Source of the DNA: Hyphomicrobiales bacterium
Lineage (GTDB): Bacteria > Pseudomonadota > Alphaproteobacteria > Rhizobiales > CAJQND01
DNA length: 64,000 nucleotides
Assembly (NCBI GenBank): GCA_028285595.1
Contig: JANQOW010000042.1
Location: forward strand, 1 to 64,000
Direction: 5' to 3'
Shown: in pieces, positions 4,646 through 32,083 of the stretch
How positions within the stretch are numbered: position 1 is the first letter of the stretch
Layout: the number at the start of each line of letters is the position of its first letter
Made by a program: the position numbers and the translations under genes
The notes under the pieces: model-generated
What the model saw: only the letters and a program-made list of their open reading frames with translations
Databases searched by the model: none
Told to the model about the DNA's origin: nothing

Positions 4646-4663
4646 TGTCAAGATAAATTGACA
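4646..4663. promoter_or_regulatory. PpsR/CrtJ-type site upstream of bchI
   Basis: TGTCAAGATAAATTGACA is a TGT-N12-ACA motif in the gap between the DUF3422 gene and bchI. Read on the minus strand it ends in TTGACA and is followed about 17-18 bases later by a weak -10-like TCATGC/CATGCT. Repressor binding would therefore cover the probable bchI promoter. Confidence 0.75.
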
Positions 4664-14235: not shown

Positions 14236-14253
14236 TGTCCAATTTGATTGACA
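14236..14253. promoter_or_regulatory. PpsR/CrtJ-type site upstream of pucB
   Basis: TGTCCAATTTGATTGACA is a TGT-N12-ACA motif 106 bp before pucB and about 20 bp upstream of a sigma70-like promoter. It suggests aerobic repression of LH2 by PpsR. Confidence 0.72.
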
Positions 14254-14358: not shown

Positions 14359-14538
14359 ATGGCCCACGAAACACAAACCGCCGATCTGGACGACCCTGAT
14401 CGGATCTGGCCCACCGGTCTTACCATCAGAGAATCCGAGGAGATCCACAAGCACATCATTGATGGCTCGCGTGTGTTCTTTTTCATCGCGCTCATCGCGC
14501 ACATCCTGGCGTACTTGTATACGCCCTGGTCCTTCTGA
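14359..14538 (+). CDS. pucB: LH2 light-harvesting beta polypeptide
   Basis: Single-helix antenna protein of 59 residues that binds bacteriochlorophyll in the peripheral LH2 ring of the photosynthetic membrane. The core GLTIRESEEIHKHIIDGSRV, then the membrane helix with ALIAHILAY and C-terminal TPWSF, aligns well with LH2 beta chains. The His of AHILAY is the B850 ligand, the His in EEIHKH is near the carotenoid/B800 pocket, and the Arg in DGSRVF is the residue that hydrogen-bonds B800. It has a polar N-terminal extension of about 19 residues. It is followed 13 bp later by pucA. Confidence 0.96.
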   Translation: MAHETQTADLDDPDRIWPTGLTIRESEEIHKHIIDGSRVFFFIALIAHILAYLYTPWSF

Positions 14539-14551
14539 GGGGAGATAAGTA

Positions 14552-14698
14552 ATGAACCAAGGTAGAATCTGGTGCATAGTGAATCCGACAGTTGGCTTGC
14601 CGCTGTTTCTCGGCAGCGTTGCCATCATCTCATTGATCGTTCACTACTCAATTTTAAGCAGCACAACTTGGATGGCCGCATTTTTCCAAGGTGGCTAG
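14552..14698 (+). CDS. pucA: LH2 light-harvesting alpha polypeptide
   Basis: Alpha chain of LH2, 48 residues, starting [17 protein letters not shown] as in the Rhodopseudomonas acidophila (Rhodoblastus) B800-850 protein. The B850-ligand His falls at residue 31 (SLIVHYSIL) and Trp at 40 (STTW), so numbering is collinear with that protein. The C-terminal pair that hydrogen-bonds the B850 C3-acetyl groups, Tyr44-Trp45 in B800-850 complexes, is Phe44-Phe45 here (MAAFFQGG). B800-820 type chains are Phe-Leu there, so a blue-shifted complex is predicted. A GGGGAG ribosome binding site precedes the ATG. Confidence 0.96.
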
Positions 14699-14746
14699 CA
14701 TCTGCTAGACTGATCTTGCGACTACTGCGCAGCGTAAAGATTTTGA

Positions 14747-14769
14747 TGCCCTGAACTGGTCTCAGGGCA
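14747..14769 (+). terminator. Intercistronic stem-loop after pucA
   Basis: TGCCCTGA (14747-14754) pairs with TCAGGGCA (14762-14769) across a 7-base loop, 49 bp after the pucA stop and 46 bp before the next gene. Such hairpins downstream of antenna genes in other purple bacteria stabilise the short antenna mRNA and limit read-through. No strong U-run directly follows the stem, so partial read-through to the next gene is plausible. Confidence 0.55.
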
Positions 14770-14814
14770 GGGCATTGGATCTTTTCAATCCCCAAACGTG
14801 AATGGAGGGCCGCC

Positions 14815-15507
14815 ATGACGTTAAACGTCCGTATCTATGACACGGAGGACAACGCAAAGGCCGCCGATGCGGCGCTCGCCAAAGCCGGGTTTACCGAACG
14901 ATCCGTTTTCCTTCCCAGCAAATCCAAAGGTAAGGAGCGGGCTACGGTCCAAACGGCTATCGAGAAAGGCCAGTTGCCGGCGAGGAACGTGCTAATCTGC
15001 ACACAGACTCTGGAAAAAGGGCGTGCTCTGGTTTCCGTGGAAGCACCTTTTGGGAGCGGGCAAGCCGCGCTCAACATCATGGACGGCATCAAAGGCGTAG
15101 ATGGGGATTTACTTAGCCGTTATGTGCCGAGTGATCCTTCGCCATTCTCTGATAGTCTGGGTTGGAGCACCCTATCGAACTCCGAGCCATCGTCTGGTTT
15201 GCTTCGGCACGACTGGGCGTTCTCCAGGCTCTTTGGCATGGGTTTGCTCAGCGACAAAGCGGCACCATTCTCCTCTATGTTTGGCATGAAGGTGCTGAGT
15301 GCTGCCAAGAAAAATTGGAATTCCAGTTTCGGAATGCCAATGCTGAGCAACAAGGCGGCTCCCCTCTCATCCATGTTTGGAATGACAACCGTTCTCAAGT
15401 CGAAGAGAAACTGGGAGTGGAGTTGGGGCTTGCCACTGTTGTCGAAAAATCCTGCGCCCTTCTCGAGCCTGCTTGGCCTGAAGACGCTGTCTAAGCCTGA
15501 CCGTTAG
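14815..15507 (+). CDS. Unrecognised puc-operon protein with 16-residue C-terminal repeats
   Basis: A 230-residue protein between pucA and pucC that I cannot assign to a named family. Residues 1-95 look like a small alpha/beta domain of the general stress/DUF1269-like type (VRIYDTEDNAKAADAALAKA), which is a weak resemblance. From about residue 106 it is built of repeats. Gly recurs at 141, 157, 173, 189, 205 and 221, an exact 16-residue period, in the pattern [FWL]SSx[FLW]G[ML]xxLS. Two 32-residue double repeats are clear (146-177 and 178-209), starting SDKAAPFSSMFGM and SNKAAPLSSMFGM; a displaced copy has Gly116. The repeats look amphipathic and aromatic-rich, with no obvious long transmembrane helix. 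A GGAGGG-like ribosome binding site precedes the ATG. Context suggests a role in LH2 or membrane organisation. Confidence 0.8.
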   Translation: MTLNVRIYDTEDNAKAADAALAKAGFTERSVFLPSKSKGKERATVQTAIEKGQLPARNVLICTQTLEKGRALVSVEAPFGSGQAALNIMDGIKGVDGDLLSRYVPSDPSPFSDSLGWSTLSNSEPSSGLLRHDWAFSRLFGMGLLSDKAAPFSSMFGMKVLSAAKKNWNSSFGMPMLSNKAAPLSSMFGMTTVLKSKRNWEWSWGLPLLSKNPAPFSSLLGLKTLSKPDR

Positions 15508-15578: not shown

Positions 15579-17039
15579 ATGGGTAGATATAGAGAACGTT
15601 TGCTGAGCGTATGGGCCTCGTTAGGCCCTCGGTATATGCCGTTTGCGGACGTTGTCACGCCTGACCTCCCCTTGCATAAGCTTGCGCGTCTTTCGCTCTT
15701 CCAGGTATCGGTTGGCATGACCATGGTTCTCCTTGTGGGAACTCTTAACCGAGTCATGATCGTCGAACTTGAGGTTCCTGCCGCCATCGTGGGCGTTATG
15801 ATTGCGCTCCCCTTGTTGATCGCGCCCTTCCGCACAGTGATCGGTTACAAGTCTGATACGCATAGGTGCGAGTTGGGCTGGCGGCGCGTGCCGTTCATTT
15901 GGAAGGGCACGCTCCTTCAATTTGGCGGCTTTGCTATCATGCCGTTTGCCCTCCTTGTGTTGGCGGGGAAGGGTCAGGCAGATGCGGTGCCAGCTTGGGT
16001 TGGCCAATCGTCAGCCGCGCTCGCATTTTTGTTGGTGGGAGCCGGAGCACATGTTGTTCAAACCACCGGATTGGCGCTCGCCACCGATCTAACGCCGTCC
16101 AAGTCCCATCCCAAGGTGGTTGGCTTTATGTATGTCATGCTGCTTGTCGGCATGTTTGCCAGCGCATTGATATTCGGTGCTGTGTTGGCCGATTTCACGC
16201 CTGGCCGCTTGGTTCAAGTCATCCAAGGGGCCGCGCTTGCCTCTCTGGTCTTGAACAGTGTGGCCATCTGGAAACAAGAGGCGCGGCGTCCACCCCGCGG
16301 TGCGCCCAGGCCAGAGGCAGATCCGTCGTTCCGTGAGTCTTGGGATCGTTTTTGCCAAGGTGAGCACGCCATCAGGCGGTTGGTGATTGTGGGACTGGGC
16401 ACAATGGCTTTCGGAATGGCAGACGTTCTCCTTGAGCCCTATGGCGGGCAAATCCTGAATTGGTCGGTGGCTGATACCACGAAGCTGACGGCTCTGCTTG
16501 CGATTGGCGGGCTGTTGGGCTTTGTCTTTGCATCCCATGTTCTCAAGCCTGGAAGCGATCCTTACCGCCTAACGCAGAATGGTGCGCTGATTGGACTACC
16601 AGCATTCGCGCTGGTAATTGCTGCGGCACCATTGGACTTGAGTGCACCGTTCTTGGTTGGAAACTTTCTGATCGGCTTCGGCGCCGCGGTGTTCGGTCAT
16701 GCGACGCTAACAGCTACGATGAGCCAGGCGCCAAAAGAACAAGCCGGTCTTGCCCTTGGCGCTTGGGGTGCCGTTCAAGCAACAGCGGCGGGCGTGGCGT
16801 TGGCCTTAAGTGGTGCAATTCGCGACATCGTTGGGATATTCATGGCCGGAACGGAGAGCGTGTTTGGGCTGGCCGGTCCGGCGTTGGGATACATCTCCGT
16901 TTATGCGCTTGAGATTGCGCTCTTGCTGATCACGGTGGCGGCCACAATTCCTCTTGTAGGCCGCATCACCAAACATCATCGCACGAATGACAGCGGCGTT
17001 GCTGAGGATGTAACGGCAGCCCGGCCTTCTCAGAGTTAA
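15579..17039 (+). CDS. pucC: PucC, BCD-family major facilitator needed for LH2 assembly
   Basis: Polytopic membrane protein of the bacteriochlorophyll delivery/LhaA-PucC family (major facilitator fold), required for LH2 formation and thought to help deliver pigment or assemble the complex. The 486 residues have about 12 hydrophobic helices. Recognisable segments are HKLARLSLFQVSVGM, GTLNRVMIVELEVPA, GYKSDTHRCELGWRRVPFIW and TGLALATDLTPSKSHPKVVG. The ATG at 15579 follows GGAGGG by about 7 bases and is preferred to an upstream GTG at 15537. It lies 71 bp after the repeat-protein gene and 15 bp before the deformylase gene, so the three are likely one transcript with pucBA. Confidence 0.94.
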   Translation: MGRYRERLLSVWASLGPRYMPFADVVTPDLPLHKLARLSLFQVSVGMTMVLLVGTLNRVMIVELEVPAAIVGVMIALPLLIAPFRTVIGYKSDTHRCELGWRRVPFIWKGTLLQFGGFAIMPFALLVLAGKGQADAVPAWVGQSSAALAFLLVGAGAHVVQTTGLALATDLTPSKSHPKVVGFMYVMLLVGMFASALIFGAVLADFTPGRLVQVIQGAALASLVLNSVAIWKQEARRPPRGAPRPEADPSFRESWDRFCQGEHAIRRLVIVGLGTMAFGMADVLLEPYGGQILNWSVADTTKLTALLAIGGLLGFVFASHVLKPGSDPYRLTQNGALIGLPAFALVIAAAPLDLSAPFLVGNFLIGFGAAVFGHATLTATMSQAPKEQAGLALGAWGAVQATAAGVALALSGAIRDIVGIFMAGTESVFGLAGPALGYISVYALEIALLLITVAATIPLVGRITKHHRTNDSGVAEDVTAARPSQS

Positions 17040-19140: not shown

Positions 19141-19154
19141 TTGATTTATGTCAA
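19141..19154. promoter_or_regulatory. FNR-like (FnrL) box upstream of bchE
   Basis: TTGATTTATGTCAA fits TTGAT-N4-(A/G)TCAA, the FnrL pattern of purple bacteria. Its centre (19147.5) lies about 41 bases upstream of a start that would follow a -10-like TAAATT (19176-19181), a class II activator position. It overlaps the first PpsR site by 6 bp. Confidence 0.6.
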
Positions 19155-19191
19155 TAAACATTGACATTATATGTGTAAATTTTAAGTTACA
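19149..19191. promoter_or_regulatory. Tandem PpsR/CrtJ sites at bchE
   Basis: Two TGT-N12-ACA motifs lie at 19149-19166 (TGTCAATAAACATTGACA) and 19174-19191 (TGTAAATTTTAAGTTACA), separated by 7 bp. This close spacing resembles cooperative CrtJ site pairs. The downstream site would cover the predicted -10 and start point, just before the bchE ribosome binding site AGGAGG (19196-19201). Confidence 0.78.
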
Positions 19192-31494: not shown

Positions 31495-31716
31495 ATGGCC
31501 GATAGCACAAATGACACGCCGCGCGCGAAATCAGACGCTCATGCGGTGGATCCGAAACTGCTGGAAATCCTGGTCTGCCCCCTCACCAAGCAAACCCTGA
31601 GCTATGACCGGGAGGCCCAGGAATTGATCTCGAAGAAGGCGCGTCTGGCCTATCCGATCCGCGACGGGATACCGATCATGCTGGTGGAAGAGGCCCGTGA
31701 GCTTGGCGATGAGTGA
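31495..31716 (+). CDS. Trm112 family (UPF0434) small protein
   Basis: A 73-residue Trm112/YcaR-like protein. The core is [20 protein letters not shown], then [19 protein letters not shown]. Zinc-binding Cys are reduced to one (VCPLT), as in many bacterial members. Eukaryotic Trm112 activates methyltransferases; the bacterial role is unclear. The ATG is 17 bp after the LON-domain gene, and its end overlaps the next gene by 8 bp. Confidence 0.88.
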
Positions 31717-32083
31717 CCCTTACGATCCCAACAAGCCGTGGCCCACGGAATTGCGCCTGAAGGATAAGGGCAAGACCCTGGCCGTGACGTTCGACAATGG
31801 CGAGGCTTTTGAGTTTTCCGCAGAGTTTCTGAGGGTCGAAAGTCCCAGTGCGGAAGTGAAGGGCCATGGACCAGGCCAGGAAGTGACGGTGGCCGGCAAA
31901 CGCAATGTGGCCATTTTGTCCATCGAGCCGGTGGGCAATTATGCGGCCAAGCTGTTCTTTTCCGACAATCATTCCACGGGCCTTTATGCCTGGAGCAATC
32001 TGCTCACCATGGGCCGCACGCAAGACGAGATGTGGCAAGCCTATCTGGGCAAGCTGGAAGCGGAAGGCAAAAGCCGCGATTAG
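31709..32083 (+). CDS. DUF971 family protein
   Basis: A 124-residue protein of the DUF971 (gamma-butyrobetaine hydroxylase N-terminal-like) family, with [35 protein letters not shown] and [14 protein letters not shown]. Free-standing members are linked to Fe-S or P-loop ATPase maturation, but no function is firmly assigned. The ATG at 31709 overlaps the Trm112-like gene by 8 bp; an ATG four codons upstream (31697) is possible. It ends the CnoX-LON-Trm112 run. Confidence 0.87.

Follow-up and report, generated by a model that had tools for sequence, protein, structure and literature searches.

PucD and PucE are small extra products of the puc operons of Rhodobacter and Rhodovulum. The closest described system is the LH2-gamma chain (RPA1495) of Rhodopseudomonas palustris, present in the structures 7ZCU, 7ZDI, 7ZE3 and 7ZE8. 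As described in the corresponding report (PMC9618040), gamma is a ribbon that winds, close to the cytoplasmic side, round six of the nine alpha-beta pairs. It bears six additional bacteriochlorophylls (BChls), with each serine of its six repeats, given as EYKGHSGHPLIKQEG, binding one BChl. This 2022 structural report places gamma only in Rhodopseudomonas. In the PDB chain each gamma repeat comprises 16 residues, EYKGHSGHPLILKQEG, and the bound BChls lie 27.6 Å apart, one per alpha-beta pair.

The window, the whole stretch of 64,000 nucleotides analysed here, contains a puc operon in the order pucBA-X-pucC (Table 1), in which X has an ATG start preceded by GGAGG. The first-pass annotation had placed a 230-residue protein between pucA and pucC, in agreement with the open reading frame and with the Pfam assignments of both neighbors. 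A gap of 116 bp, containing a stable hairpin, separates pucA from X, and one of 71 bp separates X from pucC; co-transcription of pucA, X and pucC is likely. The TGTN12ACA site, a match to the PpsR/CrtJ-type consensus, precedes pucB by about 105 bp. The window contains 15 such sites compared with 8.5 expected, further ones being found at 803-830, 4646-4663 and 19149-19191, some of them paired. Apart from the window pair, the source genome has one other LHC pair, on contig C16, which is presumably puf. Comparison with PDB chains placed the window PucA nearest to LH2 alphas with nine copies per complex, and its best match is a B800/820 alpha (9dwz). The window PucA carries Phe44-Phe45 at the B850 hydrogen-bonding positions, where B850-type alphas have Tyr or Trp that hydrogen-bond to B850. 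From its sequence, the window LH2 is predicted to be blue-shifted and B800-820-like. No protein identical to the Rbl. acidophilus LH2 alpha was found when 15 genomes of a single family were searched for it.

Table 1. Features of the puc operon and of gene X in the window.
Feature	Position	Strand	Evidence
TGTN12ACA site upstream of pucB	14236..14253	+	pattern match; consensus match only
pucB, LH2 beta	14359..14538	+	PF00556, 35.4 bits
pucA, LH2 alpha	14552..14698	+	PF00556, 43 bits; closest solved chains are nine-copy LH2 alphas
Hairpin between pucA and X, without T run after it	14736..14784	+	RNA fold of 14690-14815, z=-3.0
Gene X in the puc operon, 230-aa protein with head and repeat tail	14815..15507	+	open frame, Shine-Dalgarno, conserved puc-linked family
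Head of X, residues 1-95, predicted alpha/beta domain with PII/ferredoxin-like arrangement	14815..15099	+	AlphaFold2 pLDDT about 90; structural comparison Z 6-7.5; weak YflT matches in relatives
Repeat unit 1, residues 108-123, PSPFSDSLGWSTLSNS	15136..15183	+	unit profile 25.8 bits; displaced, 25 residues ahead of unit 2
Repeat unit 2, residues 133-148, DWAFSRLFGMGLLSDK	15211..15258	+	unit profile 23.2 bits
Repeat unit 3, residues 149-164, AAPFSSMFGMKVLSAA	15259..15306	+	unit profile 28.9 bits
Repeat unit 4, residues 165-180, KKNWNSSFGMPMLSNK	15307..15354	+	unit profile 22.3 bits
Repeat unit 5, residues 181-196, AAPLSSMFGMTTVLKS	15355..15402	+	unit profile 24.7 bits
Repeat unit 6, residues 197-212, KRNWEWSWGLPLLSKN	15403..15450	+	unit profile 22.0 bits
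Repeat unit 7, residues 213-228, PAPFSSLLGLKTLSKP	15451..15498	+	unit profile 31.1 bits
pucC, LH2 assembly factor family	15579..17039	+	PF03209, 483 bits, E=9.5e-145

The C-terminal part of X is a repeat tail. Seven units were identified by a unit profile that had been refined on 45 members of the family, and six of them are spaced exactly 16 residues apart. The glycines listed in the first-pass annotation (116, 141, 157, 173, 189, 205 and 221, the last six 16 apart) each occupy position 9 of a unit. The lag-16 identity of this part is 0.24, a value reached by none of 2000 shuffles (p=0.0005, the floor of the test), and lag 16 is the strongest among lags 5 to 40 in the average of 19 family members. 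The lag-32 identity is 0.37, indicating that the two 32-residue double repeats described earlier are real. The single unit pattern proposed at the same time fits most units, but the ones at residues 165 and 197 belong to another type (KNWNSSFGMPMLS and RNWEWSWGLPLLS). Across the family, the unit consensus is [PA]-[AT]-P-[LF]-S-S-x-[FL]-G-[LM]-P-x-L-[TS]-[KRD]-x. The commonest unit spacing over all members is 16 (85 cases), followed by 32 (13), and linkers in some subfamilies stretch it to 24-27. Several members depart from this plan. The tails of L090 (11984-12937) and L101 (12045-12995) have about twelve 16-residue slots, too many for a nine-membered ring, and the last repeat of the Roseiarcus fermentans protein (L069, 11337-12191) is shortened to about 12 residues (GLPLLTAKGKPT). 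Five Rhodobacteraceae genes adjoining pucC (L106, L112, L120, L125 and L130) encode the family head with His-rich repeats of 15 or 25 residues, such as MAKFPFAHIVPGHKY.

The distribution of X follows that of the puc genes. A profile of four members run against 397 Rhizobiales genomes found full-length relatives, with head and repeat tail, in 19 including the window; the remaining matches were weak and mostly covered the head alone. X adjoins pucBA and pucC in all 18 carriers other than the window, three of which (L042, L046 and L053) were detected by the profile and not by BLAST. The PucC profile has a clear score gap, with PucC above 740 bits in 23 genomes, 18 of which have X; the puc genes of the nineteenth carrier (G261) lie on a 4.6-kb contig. 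No full-length X was found in the 50 Rhizobiales genomes with only lower-scoring PucC-like proteins, and among the 397 genomes X is confined to those with a puc-type PucC. X was undetected in five of the 23, four belonging to one genus with two pucBA pairs and the fifth (G089) having a short contig. Two pucBA pairs and a pucC, with no X detected, occur at L182, L183, L184 and L186 of one Rhizobiales genus.

Named genomes were also scanned, independently, with a PucC alignment. Of the 80 best-matching loci listed, 75 hold pucBA, and X or a relative was present at 35 of these 75. The carriers include Rhodopseudomonas, Roseiarcus, Hoeflea, Aestuariivirga, Elioraea, Caulobacterales, Kiloniellales, Rhodobacteraceae, Granulosicoccus, Halieaceae and one Myxococcota MAG. 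Among the matches listed, X thus reaches through Alpha- and Gammaproteobacteria with the one Myxococcota MAG, and was undetected in Betaproteobacteria and sphingomonads; this sample is biased towards the query and many records are MAGs, in which single taxon labels may be wrong. The assignment of X to the LH2 (puc) operon made in the first-pass annotation is well supported by this neighborhood survey, and spread in non-phototrophs with another function, which that annotation had named as counting against its idea, was seen neither in the 397 Rhizobiales genomes nor at the named loci listed. Other repeat proteins adjoining pucC at the loci lacking X amounted to a tandem DNA repeat at L078 and low-complexity frames. 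Near puc in Rhodovulum (L128, 8743-9183 on the minus strand and 524-1039 on the plus strand) and in a related MAG (L118, 8742-9152, minus strand), we observed short proteins that lack the head and contain two or three family units, with more copies elsewhere in both genomes; these may be PucD/PucE-like. A lone unit-profile match in the window at 31723-31938 (minus strand) is antisense to a 128-aa open reading frame (31697-32083, plus strand) and was rejected. Searches of the genome contigs with X alone and of plasmid records for X found nothing.

No family for X was found in Pfam or NCBIfam, and a match to Nucleoporin_FG was weak and probably compositional. In an AlphaFold2 model built with 14 sequences, residues 1-90 have pLDDT values of roughly 90 or higher, while most of residues 103-230 fell below 50 without helix or strand, which would be compatible with an extended ribbon. 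Structural comparison of the head retrieved ActD of alternative complex III, PII proteins and others at Z 6-7.5, a modeled likeness that may reflect only a common arrangement; Foldseek with the X model returned nothing at E <= 0.001. YflT (PF11181) gave no match in the window X, and its best match in relatives (E 0.0073) is below the Pfam cut-off. These weak YflT matches, together with the PII and ActD likeness at modest Z, would fit a stress or regulatory protein with a YflT-like head that sits in the puc operon by chance and whose tail has no LH2 function. We regard this as highly improbable, as no full-length relative was found away from puc genes in the 397 Rhizobiales genomes and the unit profile shows the repeats, not the head alone, to be conserved across the family.

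The relationship between X and gamma emerges through Rhodopseudomonas, where two genomes have the order pucBA-pucC-X-gamma. A family model built without Rhodopseudomonas X matches it over its whole length (E=1.7e-37 and 1.2e-34). The repeats at either end of Rhodopseudomonas X belong to the family type (ATPFSNILHAPVLLDN and NNPTPLSSWLGLPVLSK in L092), whereas its inner repeats are of the gamma type (GPYKSFSGTPLLLDTS in L072); Rhodopseudomonas X therefore joins both repeat types in one protein. Against PDB sequences, the L072 protein has the gamma chain as its sole match (E=1.3e-28), and a profile including Rhodopseudomonas X reaches gamma at E=4.7e-10. Searches of PDB sequences with the window X alone gave no match, and those with the L120 and L118 Rhodobacteraceae relatives or with a profile lacking Rhodopseudomonas gave no credible match, the latter not reaching gamma. 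A core G9-x-P11-L-[IL]13 is common to the X family and gamma in the same register. At position 8 of the unit, where gamma has its Mg-ligand serine, the units of the window X have Leu, Phe or Trp; the most conserved polar residues of the family unit are Ser5 (82%) and then Ser6 (51%). X is thus not filed as LH2-gamma, since it does not conserve the position of the Mg-ligand serine and no profile reaches gamma without Rhodopseudomonas X. Nevertheless, sequence comparison indicates that X is related to LH2-gamma by repeat and by operon, through Rhodopseudomonas X. The first-pass annotation had found the known puc products unlike X, which does not hold for Rps. palustris LH2-gamma, a relative with 16-residue repeats of its own.

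Taken without Rhodopseudomonas X, the direct sequence case for this kinship is weak. The likeness to gamma could then have arisen by convergence, or Rhodopseudomonas X could have taken gamma-type units from the adjoining gamma gene, and the window X would have another membrane role, such as linking LH2 to RC-LH1 or membrane shaping. The failure of direct profiles to reach gamma, a held-out register test between the X family and gamma with p of only about 0.02, and the tails of L090 and L101, too long for one ring, are in line with such an origin. We consider it unlikely, because the two share the period, the operon and the G-x-P-L-[IL] core in register, and because one protein carries both unit types in a row.

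We propose that X is probably a peripheral, headed belt protein of LH2 with one unit per alpha-beta pair. Packing around antenna rings, one of the roles suggested in the first-pass annotation, is the explanation we favor, since gamma, a relative of X, packs in this way in solved structures. The tail, with its seven 16-residue units, would follow the cytoplasmic edge of the LH2 ring as an extended ribbon, each unit corresponding to one alpha-beta pair like those of gamma in Rps. palustris, and the small folded head would stay on the cytoplasmic side. Given the BChl spacing in gamma, a seven-unit tail could cover seven pairs. X may hold extra bacteriochlorophyll, stabilize the ring, or break ring symmetry for packing; LH2 binding, topology and any pigment binding by X are what we infer from these comparisons. 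The proposal draws on the 16-residue period of both proteins and on the adjacency of X to a puc-type PucC in every fetched carrier. Counted against it are the L090 and L101 tails, the lack of serine at position 8 in the window, the five genomes with high-scoring PucC and no detected X, and the dependence of the profile match on Rhodopseudomonas. A further point against it is that the accessible text of PMC9618040 on the Rps. palustris LH2 structures has gamma in the complex and mentions no X.

This last point also bears on the main rival, in which X is an assembly factor acting with PucC, its repeats ordering nascent alpha-beta pairs or bacteriochlorophyll before X leaves. X directly adjoins pucC, itself an assembly-factor gene, and in the window the intercistronic hairpin separates it from pucBA; an assembly role would also agree with the silence on X in that text. 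The related gamma chain, however, is a lasting subunit, and the repeat period fits the finished ring, so that we judge an assembly role rather unlikely.

X represents a genuine and conserved family that is linked to puc and has apparently not been described before; no description of it was found in the literature searched, and PMC9618040 was the only paper found there on this type of protein. With a headed puc-linked family sharing the repeat period of gamma, many native LH2 complexes may carry, or be built with, an overlooked component, one left out of structures and energy-transfer models, and belts so far reported only in Rhodopseudomonas may be common. More tentatively, and with less than even confidence, belts might be widespread in the LH2 of Alpha- and Gammaproteobacteria and carry pigment, normally with a cytoplasmic head and another ligand position (Ser5/6, perhaps His in Rhodobacteraceae), tail length setting the number of extra pigments. 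The headless gamma of Rhodopseudomonas would in that case be a derived copy. The survey points to specific genes, and to X-bearing organisms in culture such as Roseiarcus fermentans, Hoeflea olei and Rhodopseudomonas rhenobacensis, where such a component could be sought.

Compared with known systems, the predicted strand and helix order of the X head is that of small alpha-beta domains of the YflT, ActD and PII type, but its sequence falls below Pfam cut-offs, and to our knowledge no repeat tail is expected in those families. PucD and PucE resemble X by description only, as small extra products of puc operons. LH2-gamma is similar to X in its 16-residue tandem repeats, its G-x-P-L-[IL] core and its location in the puc operon, where its gene directly follows X in Rhodopseudomonas. 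Gamma is an extended chain, and for the X tail neither helix nor strand is predicted, though with pLDDT values that mostly stay under 50. However, gamma has 97 residues and no head, whereas X has 230 with a folded head of about 95, and where gamma has its ligand serine directly before the repeat glycine, the units of the window X carry Leu, Phe or Trp.
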